Of a DNA stretch of 18,602 bases, positions 2,444-18,602 are shown piece by piece (the stretch's first letter is position 1; each line of letters begins with the position of its first letter). The notes beneath the pieces are model-generated. The model was given only the letters and a program-made list of their open reading frames with translations. It searched no databases and was not told the origin of the DNA. Position numbers and translations under genes: made by a program. The stretch is taken from the NCBI GenBank assembly GCA_030637665.1, contig DAOWGA010000319.1, positions 1-18,602 on the forward strand, given 5' to 3'. The DNA comes from Lysobacterales bacterium. GTDB taxonomy: Bacteria; Pseudomonadota; Gammaproteobacteria; Xanthomonadales; SZUA-36.

Positions 2444-2513
2444 GCCTACCCTGCAGGCATGTCGGCCTCCTATAGGGCTGATCCAAAATCCGGATGTGAT
2501 TTTCGTGCCAGTC

Positions 2514-2522
2514 TGCGATAAT
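2514..2522 (+). promoter_or_regulatory. candidate extended -10 promoter for pgsA
   Basis: The uvrC-pgsA gap holds TGC-GATAAT, an extended -10 element (TG, one base, then a hexamer matching TATAAT at five of six). It would start transcription about 25-30 bases before the pgsA ATG. The matching -35 position (2494-2499, ATGTGA) is poor, which is tolerated with an extended -10. I see no Rho-independent terminator in this 112-base gap, so read-through from uvrC is also possible. Confidence 0.35.
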
Positions 2523-2555
2523 GCTGGCCGGTAATCGGCACTCCACATATTTACC

Positions 2556-3212: not shown

Positions 3213-3213
3213 C

Positions 3214-4467: not shown

Positions 4468-4470
4468 AGC

Positions 4471-5286
4471 ATGGTTCAGGTACGCAAACAGAAAATAGCC
4501 GACCAGGCTGACCGCCACCACCTTTACCAGGAGTCCGTTCAGGACACCGAAGCCGAAATCGATTTTGTCGAGGATACCTGGCGGGAACTCAGGAACCGTC
4601 CTGCGGAATTGCTGCGTGAGGATTTCTGCGGTACGGCCAATACCGCCTGCGAATGGGTGCGGCGTGATCAGTACCACTACGCCATTGGCATTGACCTGGA
4701 CGCTGAAGTACTGGAGTGGGGGCGACTCAACAACCTGGAGCAACTCGATGACGAGCAATATGCCCGGATCGAATTGCTACAGGATAACGTGCTCGATACC
4801 CAGGCTGACCTGGCGGACATCATCCTGGCCATGAACTTCAGCTATTTTCTGTTTCTCGATCGTGCTGATTTGCTGGAATACTTCCAGGGTGTTCATGTGG
4901 GCCTCGTTGAAGACGGAATTCTATTTCTGGACGCCTACGGTGGTTACGATGCACCCAAGGAGTTGCAGGAAGAAAGAGAGTGCGACGGATTTACCTACAT
5001 CTGGGACCAGGACTCATTCAACCCCATTGACTCACTCATGACCTGCCACATCCATTTCGAATTCCCGGATAAGTCGCGAATGGAAAAGGCGTTTTCGTAT
5101 CACTGGCGATTATGGACCCTGCCCGAGATCTGCGAATTGCTGGCAGAGGCCGGTTTTGACAAGATAACGGTGTATTGGGAAGGTACCGACAAGAAGACCG
5201 GTGAAGGGGATGGAGTCTACAAGCCAGCCAGGGTCGGGGATGCAGATCCCGGCTGGGTTTGCTACATCGTCGCCGAGAAATGGTAG
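4471..5286 (+). CDS. class I SAM-dependent methyltransferase, substrate unknown
   Basis: A 271-residue soluble protein with a Rossmann-type SAM-binding core. Residues 48-57 (LLREDFCGTA) are the glycine-containing motif I of a recognisable methyltransferase subfamily. IGIDLD at 72-77 supplies the acidic residue expected to hold the SAM ribose. DNVLD (105-109) and ILAMNFSYF (118-126) fit motifs II-IV. The C-terminal half is rich in aromatic and acidic residues (FTYIWDQDSF, FSYHWRLWTLPEI) and probably forms the substrate cap. It begins three bases after the ispG stop, so it is probably co-transcribed, but that alone does not say it acts on an isoprenoid. Small molecule, protein and RNA are all possible acceptors. 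The fold is well supported; the substrate cannot be read from the sequence. Confidence 0.85.
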   Translation: MVQVRKQKIADQADRHHLYQESVQDTEAEIDFVEDTWRELRNRPAELLREDFCGTANTACEWVRRDQYHYAIGIDLDAEVLEWGRLNNLEQLDDEQYARIELLQDNVLDTQADLADIILAMNFSYFLFLDRADLLEYFQGVHVGLVEDGILFLDAYGGYDAPKELQEERECDGFTYIWDQDSFNPIDSLMTCHIHFEFPDKSRMEKAFSYHWRLWTLPEICELLAEAGFDKITVYWEGTDKKTGEGDGVYKPARVGDADPGWVCYIVAEKW

Positions 5287-5302
5287 CAGCGCCTGCTTCT
5301 AC
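5283..5302 (+). terminator. possible hairpin at convergent gene ends
   Basis: GTAGCAGC and GCTTCTAC pair at seven of eight positions around a four-base loop. The hairpin contains the stop codons of both the methyltransferase and ygfZ, whose ends are only 12 bases apart. It could slow polymerases from either side. Neither strand has a T-run after it, so it is not a standard intrinsic terminator. Confidence 0.25.
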
Positions 5303-6099
5303 GACACCACTTCGTATGACTGGTTTTCGCAGCCGATTGAATCGGGTTTCTCGCCTGCCCTGGGTCGCGTGACCATAAACAACAGCGTGTTTTGGTTTTC
5401 AGCCGGTGCGGAATCAACCAGGGTGCCGTCGACTGTTTCCGCACCATAATTGACTTGAACCCGGGCACCATTCCCGATTCCGGCCTGACCCTCGACAGTC
5501 GCGATCAGCGGTGTGCGTTTTACTTTGCCCAGGTAACGGGTGCGGGCAACGATCTCCTGGCCGGGGTAGCAGCCTTTGGAAAAGCTGACCGCGCCGATGG
5601 TGTCGAAGCCGAGCATTTGCGGAATATATTTTTCTGAAGTTTGCGCATCCAGCCAGGCCACTCCCTGGATGAGTTCTGTAAATTTCCACTGGCCTGCATC
5701 TTCGCTGGCGCCTGAATTTTCTGTTCCAGGCGAGTACCGCAACGAAAGACCGGCCGGGGAAAATATGGCATTACCTGTTTCCGCTGAATCAGAAGGAAGT
5801 AGGCCGCACACCTCCATTTCCTGTGCAATTTCAATTTGCACTTTTGCCCGCAGCACGAACATCCGCAATCGCTGAACCATGGCGGGCAGCAATTCTGACG
5901 CTCCGATCGCCACGTAACTGTCACCCAGGCTGCCCACCAATAACAGCCCCAATACCTGCCCGCGTGCTGTGCAGTAGGTGGCAAACGTTGATTCTCCATC
6001 TGTGAGCACGGCGATATCCGCACTCAATTGGGACTGTAAGAAGGAGCCGGCATCAGGGCCGGAAAACCTTGTGGTGGAAAGGTAGGACAAATGAATCAT
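5299..6099 (-). CDS. ygfZ: folate-binding YgfZ-family Fe-S assembly protein
   Basis: YgfZ-family proteins bind tetrahydrofolate through a GcvT-like fold and help make or repair particular Fe-S enzymes; the mitochondrial relative is Iba57. The signature KGCYPGQE is at residues 175-182 with the conserved C177, followed by IVARTRYLGKVKR, as in E. coli YgfZ. The N-terminal aminomethyltransferase-like half (about 1-90, with SFLQSQLSADI and CTARGQVLGLLLV) is also typical. At 266 residues it is somewhat shorter than E. coli YgfZ (about 326). The gene is transcribed away from sdhC through a shared 220-base promoter region. An Fe-S helper beside a Fe-S respiratory complex is functionally reasonable, although the adjacency may be chance. 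Start ATG 6097-6099 fits the family N-terminus. Confidence 0.92.
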   Translation of the reverse strand: MIHLSYLSTTRFSGPDAGSFLQSQLSADIAVLTDGESTFATYCTARGQVLGLLLVGSLGDSYVAIGASELLPAMVQRLRMFVLRAKVQIEIAQEMEVCGLLPSDSAETGNAIFSPAGLSLRYSPGTENSGASEDAGQWKFTELIQGVAWLDAQTSEKYIPQMLGFDTIGAVSFSKGCYPGQEIVARTRYLGKVKRTPLIATVEGQAGIGNGARVQVNYGAETVDGTLVDSAPAENQNTLLFMVTRPRAGEKPDSIGCENQSYEVVS

Positions 6100-6144
6100 G
6101 GTTGCATTCGGGTCGGGTCGCCTGGGTGGACATTTACGTCATGC

Positions 6145-6173
6145 ATTGTATCCAAAAGAGTTGACCATGACAG
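6145..6173 (-). promoter_or_regulatory. candidate sigma70 promoter for ygfZ
   Basis: On the minus strand, CTGTCA (6173-6168, four of six matches to the -35 consensus) and TACAAT (6150-6145, five of six matches to the -10) are separated by exactly 17 bases. The transcript would have a leader of about 40 bases before the ygfZ ATG. It overlaps the outward-facing TTGACC at 6161-6166, so polymerases for the two directions may compete. Confidence 0.45.
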
Positions 6174-6260
6174 GAGATTCTGCCTTGAATATATGTGTCT
6201 GAATCAGTAGGCTTGCCAGGTTGCATTGACCCGCCAGGGTCGCGAAAAGATTCATACAAA
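6161..6260 (+). promoter_or_regulatory. upstream region of the sdh operon with promoter-like elements
   Basis: Two TTGACC hexamers (five of six matches to a -35) lie at 6161-6166 and 6226-6231. The first has TTGAAT (6185-6190, four of six) 18 bases downstream. The second has only weak -10 candidates near 6250-6258. The second hexamer overlaps a perfect 5-bp inverted repeat, GACCC-GCCA-GGGTC (6228-6241), which could be an operator or a short hairpin in the leader. I cannot choose between the two, and I see no convincing site for a named regulator. Confidence 0.3.
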
Positions 6261-6319
6261 AACGACTGCTGTATCGATTTCTGATCCGGTATTTTTGAAC
6301 GCCCAAACAGAAGAGAACC

Positions 6320-6706
6320 ATGAAAGCAGATCAACGACCTTTGTCCCCGTTCATGATCGGCCCTTACTATAAGCCTCAACTGACATCCCTGATGTCCATC
6401 ACTCACCGCGCTACAGGCGTGTTTCTCAGTGTAGTTGGCGCCCCGCTACTATTGTGGTGGATCGTCGCCGTTAGCAGCGGCCCTGCGGCCTATGACGCCC
6501 TGCTGGCTTGCATGGCCGGCTGGATTGGCAAATTGGGATTGCTGGCTTGTCTGTTCAGTCTGAATTTTCATCTCCTCAACGGCATACGACACCTGGTTTG
6601 GGATACCGGGCGGGCGCTCGATCTCAAAAGCGCCTACACGCTGGGATGGCTGGTGCTGGCAAGCGCGGTCATTCTCACTGCAGTTCTGGCGGGGGTGCTG
6701 TTATGA
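6320..6706 (+). CDS. sdhC: succinate dehydrogenase cytochrome b556 subunit
   Basis: SdhC is one of the two membrane anchors of complex II; with SdhD it binds haem b and ubiquinone. The 128-residue protein has three predicted membrane helices and the family marks RPLSP at 6-10, SITHRATGV at 26-34 (the quinone-site serine and arginine of E. coli correspond to S26 and R30), and FHLLNGIRHLVWDTG at 83-97. H84 lies at the position of the E. coli haem b ligand, also His84. The start ATG has AGAAGAG just upstream. It is the first gene of a tight plus-strand run, and its stop overlaps the sdhD start as ATGA. Confidence 0.96.
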   Translation: MKADQRPLSPFMIGPYYKPQLTSLMSITHRATGVFLSVVGAPLLLWWIVAVSSGPAAYDALLACMAGWIGKLGLLACLFSLNFHLLNGIRHLVWDTGRALDLKSAYTLGWLVLASAVILTAVLAGVLL

Positions 6707-7083
6707 GCATGGTGAATCCTCTGGCCAAAGCACGCGGCCTTGGCAGCGCCAAGGAAGGTGTGCACCACTGGTATATGCAAAGAGCAAGTGCAATCCTGCT
6801 TCTGTTCCTGGTCGGCTGGCTGATATACGCCATGATCAAACTGGCTGGCGCCGGGCATGCCGAAGCGGCAGCGTTTATTTCAAATCCGACCAATGCAGCC
6901 TTCATGCTCGTTTTGCTGGTCAGCCTCTTTTACCACGCGATGCTGGGACTCCAGGTCGTAATCGAGGATTACGTACACCAGCGGGCGCTGGAAGTGACCC
7001 TTTATTTCCTGACCCGTGCCGGAGCTTATATCGGCATGGCTATTGGGATTATTCACGTACTTAAACTGGCCCTTGGAGCCTGA
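6703..7083 (+). CDS. sdhD: succinate dehydrogenase membrane anchor subunit
   Basis: SdhD is the second membrane anchor of complex II. I start it at ATG 6703, which shares ATGA with the sdhC stop; the frame is open further upstream only as a shadow of sdhC. The 126-residue product has three hydrophobic helices. H78 in LFYHAMLGLQ and Y90 in EDYVHQ keep the E. coli spacing of H71 (haem ligand) and Y83 (quinone hydrogen bond). The N-terminal HHWYMQRASA segment is also typical. A second in-frame ATG at 6709 is possible. Translation is probably coupled to sdhC. Confidence 0.95.
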   Translation: MSMVNPLAKARGLGSAKEGVHHWYMQRASAILLLFLVGWLIYAMIKLAGAGHAEAAAFISNPTNAAFMLVLLVSLFYHAMLGLQVVIEDYVHQRALEVTLYFLTRAGAYIGMAIGIIHVLKLALGA

Positions 7084-7086
7084 TTG

Positions 7087-8877
7087 ATGAGCAAGTCCTA
7101 CGATCTCAAAGAACATAAATACGACGTTATCGTAGTCGGGGCCGGCGGCGCCGGCTTGCGGGCGACCATGGGCATCGCGGCCACCGGGCTGACAACAGCC
7201 TGTATCACCAAGGTCTTTCCGACGCGCAGCCACACGGTTGCAGCACAGGGCGGCATGTCCGCGGCTCTGGGCAACATGGGTGAAGATGACTGGCGCTGGC
7301 ATATGTACGACACGGTCAAGGGCTCCGACTGGCTGGGAGACCAGGACGCCATTGAATACATGTGCCGCGAGGCAATGCCTGCTGTCGTGGAACTGGAGCA
7401 TTTCGGCGTGCCTTTCTCACGCACCGAAGACGGGCGGATATACCAGCGCCCCTTCGGCGGAATGACCACGCATTATGGAGAAGGGACGGCGCAGCGCACC
7501 TGTGCGGCGGCTGACCGGACCGGTCACGCCATCCTGCATACGCTTTATCAGCAGTCGCTAAAACACGATGCAACTTTTTACATTGAGTACTTTGCGATTG
7601 ACCTGCTGATGGACGATTCCGGCACCTGCCGGGGTGTGCTGGCCTGGAACCTGGCGGACGGCACACTGCACCTGTTCCGCGCCCATGCGGTGATTCTGGC
7701 GACCGGTGGTTACGGGCGCAGTTTTTTTTCCTGCACTTCGGCGCATACCTGTACCGGAGACGGTAACGGTATGGTGCTGCGCGCCGGCCTGCCACTGCAA
7801 GACATGGAATTCATCCAGTTTCATCCCACGGGTGTCTACGGGGCCGGTGTCCTGATCACAGAGGGCGTCAGGGGGGAAGGCGGGTTCCTGACCAATTCAG
7901 AAGGCGAACGTTTCATGGAGCGTTATGCGCCCAATGCCAAAGACCTCGCCTCGCGTGATGTCGTCAGCCGTTCGATGACCATCGAAATCAGGGAGGGCAG
8001 GGGCGTTGGACCGAAAGCAGATCACATTCACCTGAACCTGCAGCACCTGGGTGCAGATGTGATCAAGGAACGCCTGCCGGGAATTGCCGAAAGCGCCGAG
8101 ATTTTCGCAGGAGTGGATGTCACCACGGACCCCATACCGGTGTTGCCCACCGTGCACTACAACATGGGTGGAATTCCTACGAACTACATGGGTGAAGTCG
8201 TAACGCTCACGGATGGTGATCCTGATACCGTGGTCCCGGGTTTATTCGCCATTGGCGAAGCTGCCTGCGTTTCGGTTCATGGCGCCAACCGGCTGGGTTC
8301 CAACTCCTTGCTCGACCTGATCGTGTTTGGGCGGGCAGTGGCCCAGAGATGTGGTGAGGTCATCAAGCCGGGTACCAGGCATCCCGATGTGCCACAGTCG
8401 GCTGTCGATGCGCTGCTTGCAGATTTCGATAGCCTGCGTAACGCCAGCGGTTCGCGTACAACGGCGGAGATTCGCGGCGAAATGCAGCATGTGATGCAAA
8501 GCAATGCTGCGGTATTCCGTACCGGTGAAGTGCTGAAGGAAGGTTGCAAGTTAATCAGCAACGTTTACCAGAGCTACAGCGAAGTCAATGTCACGGACCG
8601 TTCCCTGGTTTGGAATTCGGACCTGGTGGAAACCCTGGAATTGAGAAACCTGCTGGCTTGCGCGGTGACCGCCATGATTTCAGCGGAAAACCGCAAGGAA
8701 AGCCGCGGCGCTCATGCACGGGAAGATTTTCCTGACCGCGATGATGAACAGTGGATGAAGCACACACTGTCCTGGCTGGATGATGAGGGCAATGTGACCC
8801 TGGATTACAGGCCGGTGCACCTGTATACGCTGACTGATGACGTGGATGTCGTTCCGCCGAAGGCCAGGGTGTACTGA
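7087..8877 (+). CDS. sdhA: succinate dehydrogenase flavoprotein subunit
   Basis: SdhA oxidises succinate to fumarate at a covalently bound FAD on the cytoplasmic face and passes electrons to SdhB. The product is 596 residues, as expected. Visible features: FAD dinucleotide-binding GAGGAG at 18-23; [10 protein letters not shown] with H49 as the covalent FAD attachment histidine; HPTG from H246; TEGVRGEGG around 258-266; R290 in SRDVVSR, corresponding to the catalytic E. coli R286; H357 in VHYNMGG; and [13 protein letters not shown] from 398. The last hundred residues include the [21 protein letters not shown] segment typical of SDH. A TTG three bases before ATG 7087 also reads in frame, but ATG is preferred. 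The gene follows sdhD by three bases. Confidence 0.98.
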
Positions 8878-8895
8878 GGAAAGGAGTCAAAATAA

Positions 8896-9681
8896 ATGGC
8901 TGAGTTTCGCTTACCAAAAAATTCAAGAATAATGAAGGGCAAGACCTTCCCTGCGCCCGAGGGCGCCACCCGGACCAGGACGTTCAAGGTCTATCGCTGG
9001 GACCCGGACGATGGGGAAAACCCCCGTGTGGATAGTTACGTAGTAGATCTCGACAGCTGTGGCCCAATGGTGCTGGATGCGATCATCAAGATCAAAAACG
9101 AGATTGACCCAACTTTGACTTTTCGCCGCTCCTGCCGGGAAGGAATTTGCGGGTCCTGCGCAATGAACATCGATGGCACCAATACCCTGGCTTGTACCAG
9201 GCCCATCTCGGATTTCAAGGGCGATGTGAAAATCAATCCCTTGCCGCATTTGCCGGTGGTCAAGGATATCGTCCCGGATATGAGTCATTTCTATGCTCAG
9301 TACGCGACCATCCGGCCATGGATTCGTACCCAGAGCACAACGCCTCCGGACAGCGAGCGTCTGCAGTCCAAAACGGATCGTGAAAAGCTGGACGGCTTGT
9401 ACGAATGTATCCTGTGCGCCTGTTGCTCTACATCCTGCCCCAGCTACTGGTGGAATGGCGATCGCTACCTCGGACCGGCCGTCCTGCTACAGGCCTACCG
9501 CTGGCTGGCGGATTCCAGGGACGAAGCCACCGGTGAGCGGCTGGATGACCTGGAAGATCCGTTCAGGCTGTATCGCTGCCACACCATCATGAACTGCACA
9601 AAAACCTGCCCCAAGGGCCTGAATCCAGCGAAATCCATCGCTGAAATCAAGAAAATGCTGATCGCCCGCAGGGGCATCTGA
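8896..9681 (+). CDS. sdhB: succinate dehydrogenase iron-sulfur subunit
   Basis: SdhB carries electrons from the SdhA flavin through three Fe-S clusters to the quinone site. All ligands are present in the 261-residue product. [2Fe-2S]: C80, C85, C88, C100. [4Fe-4S]: C171, C174, C177, C238. [3Fe-4S]: C181, C228, C234. The spacing of the last two sets is that of E. coli SdhB shifted by 22 residues. The N-terminus is about 20 residues longer than E. coli SdhB, with a basic [20 protein letters not shown] lead. AGGAG at 8882-8886, nine bases before the ATG, is the clearest Shine-Dalgarno in the operon. Confidence 0.98.
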
Positions 9682-9727
9682 GCCCGGCCCCTGGTGCATC
9701 TGCAGTTAGCCGGGATACTGGTGCAAA

Positions 9728-9973
9728 ATGCCAGCTAGCCGTGTCAGCAAGCTAAAGTGGCTGTGCCGGCGTGGCATGAAAGAACTGGATGTGCTCCTCG
9801 AGCGGTTCCTGGACCAACATCAGCAACTGTTGCTGGACGGTTACTGGCCGGAACTCGAATCCTTGCTGCAGAATGAAGACGACCTGCTCTGGGACTGGTT
9901 GCAACAGCCAGCCTGCGAGCCAGCCGCAGCCTACCGGGATGTGCTGGAAAAAATCCGTGCCGGACGAGGGTAG
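9728..9973 (+). CDS. sdhE: SDH flavinylation factor SdhE (YgfY/CptB)
   Basis: SdhE promotes covalent attachment of FAD to SdhA. The 81-residue protein has the diagnostic RRGMKELD at residues 14-21, containing the RGxxE core that contacts SdhA, followed by helices with the LEs and W-D-W pattern (DDLLWDWL) of the family. Its position right after sdhB, 46 bases away, fits the role. It overlaps the next gene by 17 bases. Confidence 0.93.
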   Translation: MPASRVSKLKWLCRRGMKELDVLLERFLDQHQQLLLDGYWPELESLLQNEDDLLWDWLQQPACEPAAAYRDVLEKIRAGRG

Positions 9974-10409
9974 CTTCATTGAATTACAGACCGGAGAAGC
10001 TGCCTGGCTAAAAGCAGCCCGGTTGATCCTGGCTGTGCTGGCTGTCATCGCGCTACTGACTGCAAACACCTCGTGGGTGTGGAAACTTGCCTCTCTTATC
10101 GTCCTTATGCTGACGTTTTCCCTGATTTACCTGCAATCGCACCGCAGCGGTGGCATCCGGGTCGTGCACCTCTACCGCAACGGGGCCGTGACTCTTTGGA
10201 ATGGGCAGGACATGGAAATTCCTGCTGTATTGGAAGGCGTTCCATGGCTGACACCCTGGGTCAGCATATTATCTGTCGGTCGTTTCGATCGCTGGCCAAG
10301 ACAGCGGCTGGTGGTGTGTTGCAGTAATAATCATCCCGACGACTACCGCCACATGTTGAACTGCCTGCGGCTCGGGAGTGCAGCTAATGGCATACTAAGC
10401 CCACGATGA
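9957..10409 (+). CDS. ygfX: YgfX-family membrane protein (CptA-like)
   Basis: A 150-residue protein from GTG 9957, inside the end of sdhE. The frame is open to 9789, but that upstream part is only a shadow of sdhE. Two adjacent hydrophobic helices (about residues 19-35 and 41-58) are followed by a soluble C-terminal half with RVVHLYRNGAVTLWNGQ, VPWLTPWVSILSV and a closing FRhL-like DYRHMLNCLRL. This is the layout of YgfX, which is commonly paired with sdhE (cptAB). The E. coli homologue was described as a toxin-like inhibitor of cytoskeletal proteins, but that role is debated and cannot be read here. Its stop shares ATGA with the start of the kinase gene. The start codon is uncertain. Confidence 0.75.
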   Translation: MPDEGSFIELQTGEAAWLKAARLILAVLAVIALLTANTSWVWKLASLIVLMLTFSLIYLQSHRSGGIRVVHLYRNGAVTLWNGQDMEIPAVLEGVPWLTPWVSILSVGRFDRWPRQRLVVCCSNNHPDDYRHMLNCLRLGSAANGILSPR

Positions 10410-11533
10410 GCAAGGAACAGCCAACGGGCGGGGCCAGCACTTTTGACGTTTTGATGGATGCGGCGGTTGACGCCATCATCCTCATAGATGACAGAGGGGC
10501 AATATTGCGGTTCAACCGGGCTGCACAAAAGATTTTCGGTTATCCAGCGGATTTTGTTCGCGGAAAAAATGTGAGCATGCTGATGCCTGAACCCGATCGC
10601 AGCAAGCACAATGCGTATCTGGAACGCTACCTGAAATCCGGGAATGCCGAGATCATAGGCCGCGAACGGGAAGTATCAGGAGTGCGCAGCACCGGACTGG
10701 TATTTCCGATGCGACTGTCTGTAGGCGAGGTCGGAAGGGAGCATGGCGGCAAGCAATTTGTCGGCATCCTGCGTGATCTCTCGGAACAAAAGGCGATAGA
10801 GGAGCAGGTTCACCAACTGGAGGAGCAGCTTGTTCATGCAGACCGGCTGGTCATCCTGGGTGAACTCACAGCCGGGATCGCGCATGAAATCAATCAGCCT
10901 CTAACGGCAATAGCCGCTTACGCGGATGCCGGAAGACACCTGGTAGAGCGAAGCGTGGATGCCAGCCCCGAGGATATTCATGGCATTTGCGAGCGCATAG
11001 GCGAGCAATCACGCAGGGCCGCTGAAGTGGTGCAACGCTTACGTAAGCTGGTACGCACAGGTACCGTCAGTAAAGCCAGTCATGACTTAAATAAAATTAT
11101 TAGAAATACCTTGTTACTATTTGAATATGAACTAAATAAATCAGGTATTGATCTTGTTTTTATGGCTGGGGAAGGACTTCGGAACCTGTACGTGGATGAA
11201 ATTCAGATACAGCAGATTCTGGTGAACCTGGTCAAGAACAGCCTGGATGCAATCAACGCGGTCGGCCAGTCAGACGGGCGAATTGAAATTCAGGTGAAAA
11301 TTGTCGGTAAAGAAGTTGCCGTGGCTGTGCAGGATAACGGCCCGGGCGTTCCGGCAATACTCCGCCCGCAACTGTTCGATTCGTTTTTTACGACCAAGCC
11401 CAAGGGGGTCGGTTTGGGGCTCTCGATTTGTAAGAATATTGCTGCCGCTCACGGCGGTAGCCTGGGCTACACCAGCCCGGCAGAGGGTGGTAGCTGCTTT
11501 ACGCTGAGATTACCGCTGGAGCACATAGGTTGA
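10406..11533 (+). CDS. fixL: FixL-type PAS sensor histidine kinase, probable haem oxygen sensor
   Basis: A 375-residue soluble sensor kinase without membrane helices. Domains in order: one PAS domain (about 12-127), a short coiled linker (128-147), a HisKA dimerisation domain with phospho-acceptor H160 in GIAHEINQPL, and an HATPase domain (about 225-372) with N-box N278, G1 DNGPG (310-314) and G2 GVGLGL (334-339). The PAS domain is very close to FixL: LMPEPDRSKH ends at H68, aligned with the haem ligand His200 of Bradyrhizobium FixL, and R88 lies exactly 20 residues later, aligned with the oxygen-signalling Arg220. I83, L96-equivalent packing residues and FPMRLSVGE are also kept. This supports haem binding but does not prove it, since related PAS domains share parts of the motif. 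It shares ATGA with ygfX upstream and TTGA with the regulator downstream. A stretch near 11085-11160 is unusually AT-rich. Confidence 0.88.
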   Translation: MSKEQPTGGASTFDVLMDAAVDAIILIDDRGAILRFNRAAQKIFGYPADFVRGKNVSMLMPEPDRSKHNAYLERYLKSGNAEIIGREREVSGVRSTGLVFPMRLSVGEVGREHGGKQFVGILRDLSEQKAIEEQVHQLEEQLVHADRLVILGELTAGIAHEINQPLTAIAAYADAGRHLVERSVDASPEDIHGICERIGEQSRRAAEVVQRLRKLVRTGTVSKASHDLNKIIRNTLLLFEYELNKSGIDLVFMAGEGLRNLYVDEIQIQQILVNLVKNSLDAINAVGQSDGRIEIQVKIVGKEVAVAVQDNGPGVPAILRPQLFDSFFTTKPKGVGLGLSICKNIAAAHGGSLGYTSPAEGGSCFTLRLPLEHIG

Positions 11534-12144
11534 ACGAAGGTCATTGCAAAATCTGTATTATCGATGACGATGAGGCAATCAGGGAGTCTCTGCGCCTGCT
11601 GCTGTTTGCAGATGGCTTGAATAGTTGCACTTTCGAGTCTGCCGATGCATTCCTGCAAGACGGCAACTGCATTGAATTCGATTGCATGCTGCTGGACATC
11701 AGAATGCCGGGCACGGATGGCCTGGAACTCTTTCAGATACTGAATCGCCAGCAACTGTCCTATCCGGTGATCTTCATCACGGGCCATGGGGATATTCCAC
11801 TCGCTGTTTCCGCCATAAAGCAGGGCGCTTACGATTTCCTCACCAAACCGTTCAAGGAAGGCGAGCTGATCAGCAGGATTCACGCAGCGATAGAGCACCA
11901 CAAATCAACTCGTGAACAGGTACAGGAGCGGCATCAACTCCAGCACCGCGTCGGCTTGTGTACGCCCAGGGAACATGACGTGATGCGCTTGCTGGTCAAG
12001 GGCTTGCCTAACAAGGGAATTGCCGAAGCCCTGGGCATCAGCCCCCGCACAGTTGAGATTCATCGTGCGCACGTGATGGAGAAAATGGAAGCCGATTCGC
12101 TGCCCGCGCTGGTGCGAATGATTGCGGTGCTGGGGGAGAGCTAA
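11530..12144 (+). CDS. fixJ: FixJ-family response regulator with LuxR-type HTH
   Basis: The cognate partner of the kinase just upstream. The TTG start at 11530 overlaps the kinase stop by four bases (TTGA), indicating translational coupling; no ATG is available at the domain start. The 204-residue product has an N-terminal receiver (about 5-122) with an intact acidic pocket (IIDDDE, 10-15), phospho-acceptor D56 in LLDIRMPG, T84 in FITGHGD and K106 in FLTKPF. A linker leads to a LuxR/FixJ helix-turn-helix (about 143-200) with LCTPREHDVMRLL, NKGIAEALGISPRTVEIHRA and VMEKM. All catalytic residues are present, so it should be phosphorylated normally and bind DNA. The location suggests it controls the neighbouring HiPIP and cbb3 genes; this is inference from position. 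Confidence 0.9.
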   Translation: MNEGHCKICIIDDDEAIRESLRLLLFADGLNSCTFESADAFLQDGNCIEFDCMLLDIRMPGTDGLELFQILNRQQLSYPVIFITGHGDIPLAVSAIKQGAYDFLTKPFKEGELISRIHAAIEHHKSTREQVQERHQLQHRVGLCTPREHDVMRLLVKGLPNKGIAEALGISPRTVEIHRAHVMEKMEADSLPALVRMIAVLGES

Positions 12145-12239
12145 ACCACGCAACGCACTAATCAGCAGTCAAATTTCTACCTCATCCTGTGATTTTATCT
12201 ATCTTTTTTGCCTCAGCTTGATCCAGGACATTTCAATAC

Positions 12240-12245
12240 TACGTA
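12240..12245 (+). promoter_or_regulatory. candidate regulator site TACGTA upstream of the small receiver gene
   Basis: The 180-base gap after fixJ contains CTACGTATTTTCC (12239-12251) centred on the palindrome TACGTA. A similar CTACGTTTT occurs at 13178-13186 just before ccoN. Both lie in non-coding DNA close to the FixJ-type regulator gene, so they are candidates for its binding site. The core CTACGT also occurs inside ccoN, and I have no recalled consensus certain enough to confirm it. The rest of the gap holds no clear terminator or RNA gene. Confidence 0.15.
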
Positions 12246-12324
12246 TTTTCCCTGATGGTATGAAGGAGCCAAGTCGTTAGCATGCCGCCAACAGCTGGGC
12301 CTGTATTACAAGGTTGACGAGGAA

Positions 12325-12723
12325 TTGTGCGGGGGCTCCGGGATTAAACAGAAAAGCAAAAAAGGTGTTGTGGTTCTCATTGAGCCGGATACTAGCGTAC
12401 GCGATGCGCTGGTAACCTTGCTGCATGGTGAGGGCTGGGCAGTGAACTGCCTGGACCAGTGCACAGAATTGGCCAATGCACTCGAGGAAGAAGGCATAAT
12501 CGCTGTCATCAGCGAGTCGAGCCTGCCGGACTGTACACCGCAGGAGATCCTCGAGTGGTGCAATGCCAGAAAAATACCCGTCATTTTCACCGGACATGAT
12601 TTATCATTGCAGGGTGCTGTGGACCTGATCAGGCAAGGGGCAAGCGATTTCCTCGACAAGCCTTTCCCGCAGGGCAGACTGGTCGATTTGCTGAATGACA
12701 TGTCTACAAGGCAAAATGCATAA
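12325..12723 (+). CDS. stand-alone degenerate receiver domain, cysteine-rich, FixT-like
   Basis: A 132-residue single receiver domain with no output domain. The fold is clear: VVVLIEPDTSVRDAL at the first strand, VIFTGHD with T89, and GASDFLDKPF with K112. Key residues are altered. The phospho-acceptor Asp position is E64 (AVISESSLP), a natural phosphomimic, and the acidic pocket reads E-P-D instead of D-D, so Mg-dependent phosphorylation is unlikely. It has cysteines C42, C46, C70 and C79, plus C2 if the TTG start is right. A lone receiver after fixLJ resembles FixT, an inhibitor of FixL; Caulobacter FixT is reported to bind a 4Fe-4S cluster through cysteines. Homology to FixT is inference. 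The start is uncertain: no ATG is in frame. TTG 12325 is the first usual start codon after the in-frame stop at 12253, and GTG 12370 would cut the first strand. Confidence 0.72.
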   Translation: MCGGSGIKQKSKKGVVVLIEPDTSVRDALVTLLHGEGWAVNCLDQCTELANALEEEGIIAVISESSLPDCTPQEILEWCNARKIPVIFTGHDLSLQGAVDLIRQGASDFLDKPFPQGRLVDLLNDMSTRQNA

Positions 12724-12733
12724 ATAATTCCCT

Positions 12734-12759
12734 TACAATAGATAGAGTTCCCCCGGAGG
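12734..12759 (+). promoter_or_regulatory. candidate -10 and strong Shine-Dalgarno for the HiPIP gene
   Basis: TACAAT at 12734-12739 matches the -10 hexamer at five of six positions, but no good -35 lies 16-18 bases upstream, so an activator may be needed. GGAGG at 12755-12759 is eight bases before the HiPIP ATG and is one of the best ribosome binding sites in the window, fitting an abundant electron carrier. Confidence 0.35.
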
Positions 12760-12767
12760 CTAACGAG

Positions 12768-13109
12768 ATGAAAGAAAAAGTGATTGATCGGCGTGGTTTT
12801 CTGAAAATGGGCGTGAAGGCCGGTGGCGGTGTTCTGGCCTTGTCGGCCATCCCCATCCATTTGATGGCTCAGGACAAAGTGACCGAGGATGAAGCACTGG
12901 CGCAAGCCATGGGCTATGTGCTGGATGCCACGACAACCGACACCAAAAAGTTTCCCAAACGCGCAGGTGATGCTGGCGCCAGCCAGTTCTGCGACAACTG
13001 TGCCTTGTTCAGCGGCGAAGCAGATGCCGAATTTGCGCCCTGCAGCATTTTCCAGAACCGCCTGGTGGCAGGGAAGGGCTGGTGCAACGCCTGGGTGGCC
13101 AAAACCTGA
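12768..13109 (+). CDS. hip: high-potential iron-sulfur protein, Tat-exported
   Basis: HiPIPs are small soluble periplasmic [4Fe-4S] electron carriers cycling between the 3+ and 2+ states, usually taking electrons from the bc1 complex. The 113-residue precursor begins with a twin-arginine signal (DRRGFLKMG at 7-15, then a hydrophobic stretch to about 34; cleavage probably after LMA). The mature part has the family Tyr in QAMGYVLDAT (Y50) and the four ligands in the C-x2-C, C, C pattern: C75, C78, C92 and C106 in GKGWC. The gene stands alone between the small receiver and ccoN, with its own terminator. Its place suggests it donates electrons to the cbb3 oxidase, as HiPIPs do to other terminal oxidases or reaction centres; this is inference. 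Confidence 0.94.
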   Translation: MKEKVIDRRGFLKMGVKAGGGVLALSAIPIHLMAQDKVTEDEALAQAMGYVLDATTTDTKKFPKRAGDAGASQFCDNCALFSGEADAEFAPCSIFQNRLVAGKGWCNAWVAKT

Positions 13110-13115
13110 CAAACC

Positions 13116-13149
13116 AACTCCCGGCCGGAAGCGACCGGGAGTTTTTTTT
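13116..13149 (+). terminator. strong Rho-independent terminator after HiPIP gene
   Basis: AACTCCCGG (13116-13124) and CCGGGAGTT (13135-13143) form a perfect 9-bp stem with a 10-base loop, and a run of eight T follows from 13142. It starts seven bases after the HiPIP stop codon and only about 60 bases before ccoN. Confidence 0.9.
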
Positions 13150-13153
13150 GCGC

Positions 13154-13176
13154 CGGGCAGGCGATCGTTCTGCCCG
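13154..13176 (+). repeat. second inverted repeat between the terminator and ccoN
   Basis: CGGGCAG (13154-13160) and CTGCCCG (13170-13176) form a perfect 7-bp stem around a 9-base loop. It has no T-run of terminator quality behind it. It lies in the short ccoN leader and could be an operator, an mRNA stability hairpin or a back-up terminator. Confidence 0.45.
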
Positions 13177-13211
13177 CCTACGTTTTGTGATTCAACAAGT
13201 GGGAAATTGAT

Positions 13212-14633
13212 ATGACCTACAACGATAAAGTGGTGCGGCAATTTGTCGTCATGACTGTGATCTGGGGTATTGTGGGCATGCTGGTTGGCGTCATCATCGC
13301 CGCCCAGCTGTGGCTGCCACAACTTAACTTCGACATACCCTGGCTGAGTTATGGCAGATTGCGGCCCTTGCACACCAACGCCGTCATTTTCGCATTCGGT
13401 GGTTGTGCACTGATCGGTACGTCATTATATGTCGTGCAGCGAACCTGCCATGTGCGCTTGTTTGCCGGCGGGCTGGCGTCTTTCGTCTTCTGGGGCTGGC
13501 AACTGGTGATCCTGTCGGCCGCCGTCTCCCTGCCGCTGGGGTTTACTCAGGGCAAGGAATATGCAGAGCTGGAATGGCCTATCGATTTGCTGATTACGGT
13601 TGTCTGGGTGGCTTATGCGGTCGTATTCTTTGGCACCATAGTCAAGCGACGGGTCAGTCACATATACGTAGCTAACTGGTTTTATGCTGCTTTCATCCTG
13701 ACCATTGCCTTACTGCATATCGTTAATAACCTCTCGCTTCCGGTTAATGCTTTCAAGTCCTACGGGATATACACCGGTGCGGTTGATGCCATGGTTCAGT
13801 GGTGGTACGGCCATAACGCGGTTGGTTTCTTCCTGACCGCGGGCTTCCTGGCGATGATGTACTACTTCGTGCCCAAGCAGGCGGAGGGCCCGGTCTATTC
13901 CTACCGGCTTTCCATTGTGCATTTCTGGGCGCTGATTGGGGTCTACATGTGGGCCGGGCCGCACCACCTGCACTACACGGCACTGCCCGACTGGGTGCAG
14001 TCCATTGGCATGGTGTTCTCCCTGATTCTGCTGGCGCCGAGCTGGGGCGGCATGATCAACGGTGTCATGACCCTCTCCGGACACTGGCACAAGTTACGCA
14101 CGGACCCGGTGCTGAAATTCATGATCGTGGCACTTAGCTTCTACGGTATGTCGACCTTCGAGGGCCCGATGATGTCCATCAAGACGGTCAATGCCCTGAG
14201 CCATTACACCGACTGGACGATTGGACACGTTCACTCGGGCGCATTGGGGTGGGTTGCCATGATGACCATTGGTTCGCTGTATAGCCTGATCCCGCGGCTG
14301 GTGGGTGAAAAAACCATGCACAGCGTCAAGGCCGTGGATATGCATTTCTGGATCGCAACCATTGGCATTGTGCTGTACATCACATCCATGTGGATTGCCG
14401 GTGTGATGCAGGGCCTGATGTGGCGCGCATTCAACGACGACGGTACGCTGACCTACACCTTTATCGAAACCATCGCTGCCACCAAGCCGTACTACGTGAT
14501 CCGGTTGCTGGGCGGCCTCCTGTTCCTGAGTGGCATGTTCATTATGTTGTGGAATCTGTGGAAGACCATGCTGCAAAGGCCTGCGCAAGAATTTGCAGCG
14601 GCTGAACCGGCGCACTGGGGAGAGCAGAGATGA
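13212..14633 (+). CDS. ccoN: cbb3-type cytochrome c oxidase subunit I
   Basis: The catalytic membrane subunit of the high-affinity oxidase; it reduces oxygen to water at a haem b3-CuB centre and pumps protons. The 473-residue protein has about twelve membrane helices. Ligand positions match Pseudomonas stutzeri CcoN with a constant shift of six residues: H54 (haem b) in RPLHTN, H201 (CuB) in YGHNAV, Y245 (the tyrosine cross-linked to a CuB histidine), H251 and H252 (CuB) in PHHLHYT, E317 in STFEGP, and H339 and H341 (haems b3 and b) in GHVHSG. It is therefore complete and probably active. It is the first gene of ccoNOQP and shares ATGA with ccoO. The leader is only 62 bases after a strong terminator. 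Confidence 0.98.
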
Positions 14634-15241
14634 GCGGAGGACATAAAAGATTAGAGAAGAATATCGGCCTGATGGCGGTTTTTATCGTGATCGTAATCAG
14701 CCTCGGTGGCCTGGTCGAAATCCTGCCATTGATCTTCCAGGATCAGGTCCGGTTGCCTGCTGAGGGCGTCAAACCCTATCCGGCTCTTCAGGCGGCAGGA
14801 CGCGACATCTACGTTCGTGAGGGTTGTTACAACTGCCATTCGCAGATGATCCGGCCGTTCCGCAGTGAAACAGAACGCTACGGCGCGTTCTCGGTGGCGG
14901 GTGAGTCGGTATATGATCGCCCGTTCCAGTGGGGTTCCAAACGTACCGGGCCTGACCTTGCCAGGGTCGGTGGGCGCTACAGTGACGAGTGGCATGTCAT
15001 TCACCTGACCAATCCACGCAACGTGGTGCCGGAATCCAATATGCCCGGCTATCCCTGGCTGCTGGAAAGTACGGTGGATCCGGAGCTGATCCAACGTAAA
15101 TTGAGCGTATTGCAAACCCTGGGCGACCCGTATACAGATGAGGACGTCTCTGCTGCCGGCGATGCTGTTGACGGCAAGACTGAAATGCAGGCCCTGGTGG
15201 CTTACCTGCAGGGTCTGGGCCTGGCCAGGCGCAACCGCTGA
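14630..15241 (+). CDS. ccoO: cbb3-type cytochrome c oxidase subunit II, monohaem cytochrome c
   Basis: CcoO is a membrane-anchored monohaem cytochrome c that passes electrons to the CcoN haems. The 203-residue protein has one N-terminal membrane helix (about 12-36) and then a periplasmic domain with CYNCH (C66, C69, H70) in the family context [18 protein letters not shown]. The probable methionine ligand is M138 in [27 protein letters not shown] is also typical. It overlaps the ccoN stop by four bases, giving translational coupling and fixed stoichiometry. Confidence 0.98.
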
Positions 15242-15242
15242 G

Positions 15243-15458
15243 ATGAATCTCACGGATCTGAATATGGACCTGGTACGTGGAATCCTGATGGTTGGGCTGA
15301 TTATCGCATTCCTGGGCATGTGGGCCTGGGCATGGAGTGGCAAACGCAAAGAGGTATTCCACGAAGCCAGCATGCTTCCGCTGGAGGAAGATAATGGGCA
15401 AATACCGCAGGAAAGTGATTCGCGGGGCAATGGCAAGAAAGACGGAATCGAGGAGTAA
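15243..15458 (+). CDS. ccoQ: cbb3-type oxidase small subunit CcoQ
   Basis: A 71-residue single-helix protein (helix about 10-31, ending in WAWSGKRKEVFHEASMLPL), which is the CcoQ pattern: a short N-terminus, one helix, then a basic stretch and an acidic tail. CcoQ stabilises the oxidase, helping CcoP associate with CcoNO. The start ATG 15243 lies one base after the ccoO stop; the frame is open further upstream inside ccoO only by chance. The C-terminal 30 residues are very hydrophilic and longer than in many CcoQ proteins. Confidence 0.88.
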   Translation: MNLTDLNMDLVRGILMVGLIIAFLGMWAWAWSGKRKEVFHEASMLPLEEDNGQIPQESDSRGNGKKDGIEE

Positions 15459-15461
15459 TCC

Positions 15462-16358
15462 ATGCTGAATTCATTCTGGAACTGGTTCGTAATCATCATC
15501 TCCATTGCCAGTATTCTCGGCTGTTGGTGGCTGTTGCACTGGACCAGAGGGGTTTCCGATCGCGAAGGAGAGGAAGTTGGTTCCACCGGGCACATTTGGG
15601 ACGAGAATATCCGCGAATTGAATGCGCCCTTGCCACGCTGGTGGTTGCACCTGTTTAACATCACCATTATTTTCGCTTTTCTCTACCTGCTGTTATTCCC
15701 CGGACTGGGTAACGTTCCGGGCATACTGGGCTGGACCCAGATCGGGCAATATGAATCCGAGCGCGCTGCTGCGACAGAGGCACAGGAATCCGTTTACGCG
15801 CGATTCCGTGATATGGATCCGGCAGCCCTGACGGCGGATGCAGAGGCCAATGAAATAGGCCACAGGCTGTTTGCGAACAATTGCGCCATGTGTCACGGCT
15901 CGGATGGCCGTGGCGCCAGGTCTTTCCCCAACCTGACTGACAACGACTGGCTGTACGGTGGTTCTTTCGAGCAGGTGTTGACCAGCATCAACAAAGGTCG
16001 CGTGGGCACGATGCCACCATGGGGCGCGGTATTGGGTGAAGACGGTGTTAGCGAAGTTGTTGCCTATGTTCAGCAGTTGGCCGGTCAGGAAGTTGATGCT
16101 CAATTGGCTGAGGCCGGACAAGCGCGTTATGCCACGATCTGTATTGCCTGTCACGGCATGGATGGCACCGGTAACCAGGCTCTGGGTGCACCCAATCTGA
16201 GCAACAACATCTGGTTGTACGGTGGTGATGCAGCCTCGATCGCAGAATCTGTCAACATGGGCCGCGCAGGCAAGATGCCGGCGCATGAGAACCTGCTGAA
16301 TGAAGATCGCCGCAGGTTGCTTGCTGCATACGTGACCGGGCTTTCGGAACGGCAATAG
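15462..16358 (+). CDS. ccoP: cbb3-type cytochrome c oxidase subunit III, dihaem cytochrome c
   Basis: CcoP is the entry point for electrons into the oxidase. The 298-residue protein has two N-terminal membrane helices (about 5-27 and 62-80), joined by the conserved HIWDENIRELNAPLPRWW-type segment. Two cytochrome c domains follow, with CAMCH (C141, C144, H145) and CIACH (C227, C230, H231). Probable methionine ligands are M184 in GTMPPWG and M272 in GKMPAH. This is the two-helix dihaem form. It starts three bases after ccoQ. Confidence 0.97.
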   Translation: MLNSFWNWFVIIISIASILGCWWLLHWTRGVSDREGEEVGSTGHIWDENIRELNAPLPRWWLHLFNITIIFAFLYLLLFPGLGNVPGILGWTQIGQYESERAAATEAQESVYARFRDMDPAALTADAEANEIGHRLFANNCAMCHGSDGRGARSFPNLTDNDWLYGGSFEQVLTSINKGRVGTMPPWGAVLGEDGVSEVVAYVQQLAGQEVDAQLAEAGQARYATICIACHGMDGTGNQALGAPNLSNNIWLYGGDAASIAESVNMGRAGKMPAHENLLNEDRRRLLAAYVTGLSERQ

Positions 16359-16387
16359 GCGAAAGCTTTGCGCAGCGAAACCAAGGC

Positions 16388-16747
16388 ATGAACAACAGGA
16401 CTGAAAGCATCCCCGGGCGCTGGGGCCGGCGCAGGCGTGACATTGGCATTTCGATCTGGATTGCTTTTTTGGCCGCTTGCATTGGTACCTTCGTAATCTT
16501 CGCGGTCTTGGATCCGGACGCATTGAATGACGCCTGGGTCCTGCCCTGGGAAATGGGCCGCAGGCTGGCCTACAGCCTGGGCTTTCTGTTCCTGTTCATC
16601 GTCAGCCTGATCGCCAGCAGCATGACTGTTTTTATGATCCGCACGGGCCCGGGCCAGGGGCACGCGAGTGGCCAGGGCAGAAGACCGCCGCCGGAGATCG
16701 AGTCTCCAACCGAAAAGAATCCTGACCTGGATATCGGAGACCTCTAG
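16388..16747 (+). CDS. hypothetical two-helix membrane protein in the cco operon
   Basis: I do not recognise this 119-residue protein. It has a basic N-terminus (GRWGRRRRD), a first membrane helix at about 19-41, a short loop with DPDALNDAWVLPWEMGRR, a second helix at about 60-82, and a polar, proline- and glutamate-rich C-terminal tail. The positive-inside rule places both ends in the cytoplasm. It lies between ccoP (29-base gap) and ccoG (one-base TAGTG overlap), so it is in the operon and probably serves the oxidase or its assembly. No cysteine, histidine or CxxCH suggests a cofactor role. It is not CcoS or CcoQ by sequence. Confidence 0.7.
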   Translation: MNNRTESIPGRWGRRRRDIGISIWIAFLAACIGTFVIFAVLDPDALNDAWVLPWEMGRRLAYSLGFLFLFIVSLIASSMTVFMIRTGPGQGHASGQGRRPPPEIESPTEKNPDLDIGDL

Positions 16748-18135
16748 TGGCCGACACATCGGCGGCAGGCGAATCGCTGTACTGCAAGGAACCGAAGGTC
16801 TATCCCAGGCACGTCACCGGGCGCTTTGCGCGGTTGCGGGTCATTGCGGTCTGGGTCCTGCTCGGATTGTATTACGTCCTGCCATGGATCAATGTAGGCG
16901 GCAACCAGTCCGTCCTGTTCGATCTGCCGGCGCGCAAATTTTATATCCTTGGCTTTACGTTCTGGCCGCAGGATTTCATTTACCTGGCGTTGCTTATGGT
17001 AACCGCAGGCCTGTCGCTGTTTTTCTTCACAGCGCTCGCCGGCCGCCTGTGGTGCGGATTTGCCTGCCCGCAAACGGTATGGACCGAAGTGTTCGTGATG
17101 ATCGAACGCTGGACAGAAGGCGACCGGCCAAAACAGATGAAGCTGGACGAGGCGCCGTGGAGCCGGGGGAAGATTTTAAAAAAATCATCCAAGCAGTTTC
17201 TATGGATCACTTTCGCAGCCTGGACTGGTTTTACTTTCGTCGGTTTTTTCACCCCGGTACGGGAACTGACTGACAACATTCTGAACCTGACACTGGGACC
17301 GTGGGAGACATTCTGGTTGGTCTTCTACGGCTTTGCCACCTACGGCAATGCCGGTTTCCTGCGTGAGCAGGTTTGCAAATACATGTGTCCTTACGCTCGT
17401 TTCCAGAGCGCCATGTTTGACCAGGACACGCTGATCATTTCCTATGACGAGGAACGCGGCGAACCTCGTGGCGGCAGGAGAAAGAATACGGATCTCGAGG
17501 AAGCCGGCCTGGGTGAATGCATCAACTGCACGCTGTGCGTACAGGTGTGCCCGACCGGCATCGACATCCGCAATGGCCTGCAGTACGAGTGCATCGCCTG
17601 CGCCGCCTGCATAGATGTATGTGATCAGGTCATGGATAAAATGGAATATCCGCACGGCCTGATTCGTTTCACCACCGAAAATGCACTCAAACACAAGCAG
17701 GCACACGTATTACGTCCACGAATTTTCGTCTACGCAGCCCTGCTGCTGGTGATCATCAGTGGCACCTTGTGGTCCATGACGCACCGGACGCCCCTGCGCG
17801 CTGACCTGATCCGGGATCGTAACGCGTTGTATCGGGAACTCCCCGATGGCATGATCGAGAATGTGTACACGCTGAAAATCACCAATATGGATGATGTACC
17901 GCACCAGTATGAATTTGTCCTGCCTGATGACGCTGATGCGCAGATTGATACATCGAAACCCATGGCATTGCATGCAGAAGAAGTGACCGGCATTTCCGTG
18001 CGTATCAGGATGCCGAGGTCTGCGGGGCAAGGCGTGCAGAATCTGAAACTGGAATTGCGGGCTGAAGATGAACCGTCCATCTCCAAAATCATTGAGACCA
18101 AAGTAATGCTGCCTATAGAGTTCGGGAATAAGTGA
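16747..18135 (+). CDS. ccoG: cbb3 oxidase accessory protein CcoG (FixG/RdxA)
   Basis: CcoG is an inner-membrane ferredoxin-like protein reported to reduce Cu(II) to Cu(I) for the CuB centre. The 462-residue product starts at GTG 16747, overlapping the previous stop by one base. The N-terminal half has several membrane helices and paired cysteines C103/C107 (WCGFACPQTVW) and C210/C214 (VCKYMCPYARFQ). Two [4Fe-4S] motifs follow: C258, C261, C264, C268 and C282, C285, C288, C292. A further helix (about 325-340) leads to a C-terminal immunoglobulin-like domain in the periplasm (about 360-460). Length and order match the family. Confidence 0.97.
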   Translation: MADTSAAGESLYCKEPKVYPRHVTGRFARLRVIAVWVLLGLYYVLPWINVGGNQSVLFDLPARKFYILGFTFWPQDFIYLALLMVTAGLSLFFFTALAGRLWCGFACPQTVWTEVFVMIERWTEGDRPKQMKLDEAPWSRGKILKKSSKQFLWITFAAWTGFTFVGFFTPVRELTDNILNLTLGPWETFWLVFYGFATYGNAGFLREQVCKYMCPYARFQSAMFDQDTLIISYDEERGEPRGGRRKNTDLEEAGLGECINCTLCVQVCPTGIDIRNGLQYECIACAACIDVCDQVMDKMEYPHGLIRFTTENALKHKQAHVLRPRIFVYAALLLVIISGTLWSMTHRTPLRADLIRDRNALYRELPDGMIENVYTLKITNMDDVPHQYEFVLPDDADAQIDTSKPMALHAEEVTGISVRIRMPRSAGQGVQNLKLELRAEDEPSISKIIETKVMLPIEFGNK

Positions 18136-18413
18136 TGGTGGAAAATCTGAGCAACCAGCAACGTCCCTGGTACAAAGAGCCCTGGCCATGGGTGGCAATC
18201 GCCATTCCTGGCGCCGCTGTCATCATGGGGTTTATCACTTTATACCTTGCGCTCAGCAATCCGGACTACCTGGTAGTTGAAGACGAGCAATACCAGGTCA
18301 TTGAGTCCGAACTTCGCGCCCAACCGCAAGCTGCATCATCGCCTGAACCAGACCCTGACCTGGGCAACGACCCGGAAAACGGGAACCGCGGTGACGATGA
18401 TGGAGAGCACTGA
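18135..18413 (+). CDS. fixH: short FixH-like protein
   Basis: A 92-residue protein starting at ATG 18135, sharing TGATG with the ccoG stop; a GTG three bases upstream also reads in frame. The N-terminus PWYKEPWPWVAIAIPGAAV, the single helix (about 15-37) and the following LVVEDEQYQ match the N-terminal anchor of FixH (CcoH), an assembly factor for cbb3 that works with CcoI and CcoG. Full FixH proteins are about 150-170 residues, with a periplasmic domain. Here that domain is replaced by a low-complexity Pro/Glu/Asp/Gly tail. No frameshift is evident, because ccoI begins within this gene. I read it as a naturally short FixH, with function inferred from position and the N-terminus. Confidence 0.72.
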   Translation: MVENLSNQQRPWYKEPWPWVAIAIPGAAVIMGFITLYLALSNPDYLVVEDEQYQVIESELRAQPQAASSPEPDPDLGNDPENGNRGDDDGEH

Positions 18414-18602
18414 AAACGCCTGTTTTCACTGCGGTGAACCCATACCCGCCGATGTAAAACTGTTTGTCTTGCGCGACGGACAGGAAAAAGCTGTTTGCTG
18501 CTCAGGCTGCCAGGCCGTTGCCCAGTTGATTTTCGGTACCGGGCTGGGGCGCTACTATCAATTCCGGCAGGAACTGGGCCGCACAGCTGAAGAAGACTCA
18601 AA
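18397..18602 (+). CDS. ccoI: Cu-translocating P1B-type ATPase CcoI/FixI, 3' end missing
   Basis: The first 68 residues of a gene cut by the window end. ATG 18397 (or ATG 18400) overlaps the end of fixH. The visible part holds CFHCGEPIP at 9-17 and VCCSGCQAVAQLIFG around 33-47, then GLGRYYQFR. This is the cysteine-rich metal-binding domain found at the N-terminus of FixI/CcoI-type ATPases, ahead of the usual heavy-metal-associated domain. CcoI exports copper across the inner membrane for the CuB site of cbb3. The order ccoG-fixH-ccoI is the standard one, and ccoS would be expected after it. The ATPase motifs lie outside the window. Confidence 0.9.
   Translation, partial: MMESTENACFHCGEPIPADVKLFVLRDGQEKAVCCSGCQAVAQLIFGTGLGRYYQFRQELGRTAEEDS

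Follow-up and report, generated by a model that had tools for sequence, protein, structure and literature searches.

The window analysed here is the whole of an 18,602-nucleotide stretch (contig DAOWGA010000319.1, positions 1 to 18,602, assembly GCA_030637665.1, Lysobacterales bacterium), in which a fixL-like and a fixJ-like gene are followed on the same strand by a gene for an atypical receiver, which we name FT, and then by genes for HiPIP and the cbb3 oxidase (Table 1). FT is a stand-alone receiver without an output domain, encoded directly 3' of fixL-fixJ, and its phosphorylation pocket has been rebuilt. What could such a protein do beside an oxygen switch? Judging from the sequence of this locus and its relatives, FT is probably a receiver incapable of phosphorylation, induced by FixJ, that acts back on the FixL-FixJ switch.

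Table 1. Features of the window around FT (positions in nucleotides of the window).
Feature	Position	Strand	Basis or remark
fixL-like PAS histidine kinase gene	10406..11533	+	Pfam domains; alignment to solved FixL chains
fixJ-like response regulator gene (receiver and GerE helix-turn-helix)	11530..12144	+	Profile matches
FixJ-type box TACGTATTTTCCC	12240..12252	+	Exact match to the GTAGTTTCCC-type consensus, ahead of FT
-10-like hexamer TAGCAT	12278..12283	+	38 nucleotides after box start
Pseudo-receiver gene FT	12325..12723	+	Open reading frame as listed with a TTG start; probable start ATT 12343 or GTG 12370
E20-P21-D22, replacing the acidic pair	12382..12390	+	Alignment
C46	12460..12462	+	N-terminal residue of helix alpha-2 (model)
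E64, at the phospho-acceptor position	12514..12516	+	Alignment
C70	12532..12534	+	Loop ahead of helix alpha-3
C79	12559..12561	+	Within helix alpha-3 (72-81)
HiPIP gene	12768..13109	+	PF01355; next downstream of FT
Hairpin and T-run, likely intrinsic terminator	13116..13149	+	z -4.32; after the HiPIP gene, ahead of ccoN; not listed by a simple terminator scan
ccoN, ccoO, (ccoQ), ccoP of the cbb3 oxidase	13212..16358	+	TIGR00780, TIGR00781 and TIGR00782 over cut-off; ccoQ by position only

The 132 residues of FT as listed match Pfam Response_reg (40.1 bits), and an AlphaFold2 model takes the receiver fold (pLDDT 84.3, pTM 0.80); a second Pfam match, to VpsR (24.3 bits, cut-off 23.7), was set aside as generic receiver similarity. 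A first search found 438 related proteins at E<=1e-3, the best 120 of the 438 being 60-98% identical. E64, T89 and K112 occur in every one of 121 aligned rows, and E20 and P21 in 120 of them. A 185-row alignment, which joins the first search to the best 120 of 562 matches from a second search and 16 locus sequences and was left unthinned with its near-copies (P0001 is 98% identical), has Q96 and K112 throughout and E64, E20, P21 and H91 each in 184 rows. Fold, substitutions and the lack of an output domain are therefore as an earlier note on this DNA had described them, as is the position directly after a FixL-FixJ pair. By the definition in PMC12632262, FT is an aspartate-less pseudo-receiver, without the acceptor Asp and the complete acidic pair like the bacterial proteins treated there; it differs from them in being single-domain and FixJ-linked, and the word FixT is absent from the text of that paper. 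Conservation among 15 FTs is highest in the acid loop (1.0), followed by the beta-5/alpha-5 loop (0.90), beta-4 (0.87), alpha-4 (0.85), beta-5 (0.80), alpha-5 (0.76) and alpha-1 (0.73), and lowest in alpha-3 (0.52) and alpha-2 (0.44). As far as alignment can tell, the conserved face of FT is thus the E-P-D loop, the KPFPQ loop and the beta-4 to beta-5 region, then alpha-5 and alpha-1, and not the cysteine-bearing alpha-2/alpha-3 half.

FT is a family trait that travels with fixL. At E<=1e-20 it was found in 15 of 299 genomes of the order, every one in the window's family, where it is present in 15 of 39 genomes (E<=6.3e-42, against 7.5e-17 for whatever matches next). FixL at E<=1e-60 occurs in 14 of these 39, all of them FT carriers, and the 15th carrier (G204) has its fixL in pieces. 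The gene directly 5' of FT is fixJ in 13 of 14 fetched loci, the contig of the remaining one (L042) beginning at FT. Downstream, HiPIP comes next in 10 of the 14 and ccoN is found in 12; L046 ends, and L047 has no cco gene in the 8 kb fetched. Nine of ten close loci in named genomes bear gammaproteobacterial labels (Lysobacterales, Xanthomonadales, Chromatiales, Gammaproteobacteria) and one an alphaproteobacterial label. Among 369 genomes sampled across the class there was no near match to FT, the best outside the window's own genome (4.7e-22) lying in a 521-residue frame. This search, made with a divergent alignment, drew 273 of the 369 genomes at E<=1e-12; the other matches listed lay in frames of at least 202 residues, and we discarded them as ordinary regulators. 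L018-L020 (29-30% identity; the L020 match sits in a sigma54-type regulator) were not used, and L008, a duplicate of L036, was not counted.

The promoter also links FT to FixJ. PMC4999443 gives GTAGTTTCCC and GTAMGTAG as consensus forms of FixJ sites, and TAAGTAATTTCCCTTA as the fixK site of S. meliloti. The box ahead of FT is the single exact copy of TACGTADTTTCCC in its own assembly (1.97 Mb, 77% complete), and every other FixJ-type site in the window has at least three mismatches. The output to SDH proposed in the earlier note therefore finds no support here. A box of the form TA[CG]GTANTTT[CT]CC lies upstream of FT in all 16 loci compared (the window, L036-L049 and L009), and the same or a similar -10-like hexamer follows at +38 in 12 of them and at +39 in three; L049 has none.

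Two exact boxes were found elsewhere, at L064 and L074, and a further box, L072, led to the gene for Fnr (NF008365, 231.7 bits over a cut-off of 228). The core TACGTA, sought ahead of this gene as a control, lies 68-92 nucleotides upstream of fnr in 13 of 14 family genomes with FixL and in one of 16 without it (L110-L139; the window's own genome is L121, G000:C235), a split with a Fisher p of 2.4e-6 among relatives that are not independent. G204 was counted as carrying FixL, and no fnr locus was fetched for G191, G200 and the second copy of G097. The exception without FixL, G161, belongs to the window's genus and is 83% complete, and its fixLJ may be unassembled rather than missing. The argument from fnr is one from box position and the split by FixL, the genomes being related. 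Since the box stands in 16 of 16 loci, the hexamer in 15 and the fnr core divides by FixL, FixJ probably switches FT on; its control of FT is very likely on this reading, and it probably governs FT, together with HiPIP, as well as fnr. The predicted FixJ-to-Fnr cascade would resemble that from FixJ to FixK. As a separate observation, the exact TACGTAATTTCCC box at L064 (G171:C59) lies upstream of a 192-residue open reading frame that looks hydroxylase-like by eye and is a possible further FixJ target.

Feedback on FixL is already known from Alphaproteobacteria. According to PMC7078487, Caulobacter FixT inhibits FixL autophosphorylation. On S. meliloti pSymA (L007), a FixT open reading frame, annotated fixT in sister records, follows fixL and fixJ and is itself followed by fixK and then fixN, the latter two named from our reading of the open reading frames. 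Like FT, S. meliloti FixT is a stand-alone atypical receiver with its gene directly 3' of fixJ in a fixL-fixJ-fixT-...-fixN order, and FT shows the traits of a FixT in being a single receiver without output domain encoded beside fixLJ. FT differs in keeping T89, a TGH motif and a more FixJ-like sequence, in having I59 where FixT has a Cys ahead of beta-3, and in carrying its own FixJ-type box upstream, whereas in S. meliloti the TAAGTAATTTCCC site sits where fixT ends, ahead of fixK. A search of 385 alphaproteobacterial genomes with S. meliloti FixT gave three matches, of which L077 was judged a FixT. Of 20 alphaproteobacterial loci drawn by NCBI's FixT model, 12 encode a FixL-like kinase and a FixJ-like regulator together with a separate receiver whose frame is below 200 residues (L145-L163), so the neighbourhood of FT is a known design. 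These short receivers share the FixL/FixJ neighbourhood and all score far below the cut-off of the FixT model; those shown keep a D-rich pocket (e.g. DDD, CLVID), and none was seen with E-P-D and Glu, unlike FT.

FT lies after fixLJ, has lost the acidic pair and the acceptor Asp, occurs across the family only with fixL and has a FixJ-type promoter, a combination that points to a feedback receiver. By analogy with FixT, the best reading, and the one we think likelier than its rivals together, is a FixT-like brake on FixLJ. When oxygen falls, FixL would phosphorylate FixJ; FixJ~P would then activate FT, with HiPIP, and the Fnr gene, and, directly or via Fnr, the cbb3 oxidase; FT would in turn dock on FixL as the FixJ receiver does and restrain its output, as FixT does. 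The claim concerns the way FT works, which would be that of FixT; it does not make FT a FixT. The feedback idea of the earlier note gains from the FixJ-type box, the co-occurrence with fixL and a gene order as on pSymA.

Several observations weigh against this interpretation. The profile comparison with alphaproteobacterial FixT that had been proposed as a check does bring out S. meliloti FixT (hhalign E 2.9e-5), but FixJ is nearer (5.3e-13): the FixJ receiver domain (NF006900; 5xt2) is FT's nearest relative by profile and its first by Foldseek, although FT reaches 60.2 bits against the 255-bit cut-off of NF006900 and lacks both the helix-turn-helix and the acceptor Asp. The FixT equivalog NF051882 (cut-off 150 bits) is not among the 17 families that FT matches at E<=1e-3, nor in the best 25 of 45 at E<=10. 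That model is narrow: at 27.9 bits S. meliloti FixT also stays below its cut-off, one of 14 controls passes, and of 385 alphaproteobacterial genomes 107 match at E<=1e-3 and none exceeds the cut-off. In a tree that left out the 20 alphaproteobacterial loci drawn by the FixT model, the FTs group together (99/99), as do two FixTs (97/95), the two clades being separate and on long branches, and a joint clade of FT and FixT is neither supported nor rejected (p-AU 0.297). FixL at E<=1e-75 (41% identity) occurs in two other gammaproteobacterial genomes, out of the 369 of the class sample; neither has an FT after fixJ, and TACGTA is absent from the 7.2 and 7.0 kb read at these loci, so the brake is not generally needed. 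As for fnr, G147 has FixL and lacks TACGTA ahead of the gene; four of the 13 boxes come within one mismatch of TACGTANTTTCCC and the others share mainly the core; and boxes with three to four mismatches, the kind found in the window's own genome, do not exceed chance when scored as 13-mers in 320 nucleotides (of 300 shuffles, 16 to 187 did as well). The interpretation of the earlier note is thus supported in part.

Could FT act on FixJ instead of FixL? A receiver fixed by its Glu in one state might use alpha-4/beta-5 to pair with FixJ receivers and serve as their decoy or helper. FixJ dimers use alpha-4/beta-5, and FT is more conserved from alpha-4 to beta-5 than in most of its other elements; by profile FT is a relative of the FixJ receiver, and its first Foldseek match is a full-length FixJ. 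We regard this as a tentative alternative, clearly less probable than a brake on FixL.

The earlier note had gone further and read the cysteines C42, C46, C70 and C79, and perhaps C2, as ligands of an Fe-S cluster through which FT senses redox or iron state. Part of that set survives. In the 121 rows Cys stands at position 46 in 113, at 70 in 119 and at 79 in 117; position 42 is Cys in 55 and is poorly conserved, and C2, present in six and probably untranslated given its doubtful start codon, was rejected as a ligand. The 185 rows give 171, 176 and 178 for C46, C70 and C79, 69 for C42, and the complete triad in 165. A cluster on these three residues and a fourth ligand, for which the near-invariant H91 is a candidate, would let oxygen or iron state tune FT, and Caulobacter FixT is the precedent for a receiver that binds Fe-S. 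Members of the triad are, however, lost singly. The ten FTs of the Cys group in the tree form one clade (98/99), and within it C46 is missing from L042, which belongs to the same genus as the window, and C70 from L043, the rest being kept; once L045-L049 are set aside, 180 rows remain, and among these 13 lack one triad Cys and two lack two. The deeper syntenic FTs L045-L049 have Gly at residue 46 and K, M, L, L and D at residue 70, and C, C, G, A and A at residue 79, so that all five lack C46 and C70 and three lack C79 as well, while four of the five keep H91. Yet all retain E20-P21-D22, K112 and the promoter box, from which it follows that the basic job of FT does not depend on the cysteines. 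In ideal helix geometry C70 and C79, nine residues apart with 72-81 helical, would also be too distant for one cubane.

Nor do the positions agree with those of FixT. Caulobacter crescentus FixT is, like FT, a FixLJ-linked single receiver with lineage-specific cysteines, and its C53/C56/C59/C64 motif is reported in PMC7078487 to be absent from FixT proteins outside Caulobacter. The corresponding CxxCxxCx4C (C-x2-C-x2-C-x4-C) is absent from the FT protein of the window, whose cysteines lie at alpha-2/alpha-3. S. meliloti FixT and L077 have a Cys just ahead of beta-3, in what we infer to be the column of Caulobacter C64; it aligns with I59 of FT, which would thus lack the broadly conserved FixT Cys. 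For these reasons we dropped the Fe-S site as the leading explanation and judge an Fe-S cluster in FT, or an FT tuned by one, unlikely. The cysteines look, from the alignments, like a later addition within one lineage and not the Fe-S site of Caulobacter FixT; if functional at all, the triad would serve for tuning that one clade acquired later, and a thiol switch, a metal site or a mere packing role is possible there. Least probable of all, and in our view improbable, is that FT serves as a phosphorylation-independent adaptor for another target (a protease, secretion, respiratory assembly) and is merely co-regulated with FixLJ, an idea that the frequent HiPIP and ccoN neighbours would favour and that L048 and L049, with FT beside fixLJ and no HiPIP, and L047, with FT beside fixLJ and no cco gene downstream, speak against.

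Where does FT begin? The listed TTG is not kept among relatives. Pairwise differences at codon positions 1/2/3 in eight gap-free aligned loci are 0.60/0.63/0.59 for residues -4 to 6, and this equality 5' of residue 7 makes the TTG start and C2 doubtful. They are 0.43/0.44/0.60 for residues 7-14, 0.11/0.06/0.38 for 16-19 and 0.27/0.17/0.62 for 20-40, the bias being weak inside the second block (0.50/0.46/0.57 for residues 8-12, 0.54/0.65/0.70 for 13-15). Among the 11 loci of the Cys clade (the window, L036-L044 and L009), residue 7 is encoded by ATT, ATC or ATA in ten and by TTG in L044, and residue 16 by GTG in seven and CTG in four; five outgroup loci have an ATG 11 codons ahead of E20. From these patterns a rare AUU-type codon or the GTG of Table 1 is the more likely start, and with either C2 is probably not made. 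The possible near-cognate start (window 12343-12345) often follows a GGG run in these 11 loci, and the coding bias just behind it is weak.

A more daring proposal, which we consider doubtful, is that FT is a second FixT of independent origin: a FixJ-receiver duplicate in one gammaproteobacterial family that became a FixJ-induced FixL brake, that in one clade gained, by convergence with Caulobacter, a Cys triad at alpha-2/alpha-3 responding to redox state or metals, and whose AUU, AUC or AUA start keeps translation low. If the FixT-like brake is correct, a FixJ-controlled pseudo-receiver has become fixed beside fixLJ in an uncultured, probably gammaproteobacterial family, making the feedback loop a recurrent design; the predicted FixJ regulon there would be FT-HiPIP, fnr and perhaps cbb3. 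Comparing FT relatives that have the triad with those that lack it could show what the cysteines contribute. The literature listings contained no report of a FixT-like gene from these bacteria.

The neighbouring genes fit an oxygen-sensing pair. The domains of FixL in the window are PAS, HisKA and HATPase, and its alignment to solved FixL chains (8js5 at E 2.7e-26) runs through a PEPDRSxH stretch, whose His we take to be the heme ligand; FixL thus combines a heme-PAS-like region with the kinase domains, and oxygen binding is predicted. It scores 293.9 bits, below the 850-bit cut-off of the NCBIfam rhizobial FixL model, and FixJ 226.7 bits, below the 255 of NF006900. The strong hairpin and T-run downstream of HiPIP may let only part of the transcription continue into ccoN, and FT-HiPIP may form its own transcript. 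A scan for Fnr-type boxes in the window gave three matches at up to one mismatch against 2.1 expected, one of them exact (15978-15991) inside ccoP, and was not used. Between ccoP and ccoG lies a conserved 119-residue open reading frame (16388-16747) without a Pfam match; 10 of the 14 loci fetched have it at this position. A poorly conserved open reading frame (about 9974-10409; 25-32% identity in seven loci) occupies the space between sdhE and fixL, and since it runs up to fixL, fixLJ may be co-transcribed with sdhE.
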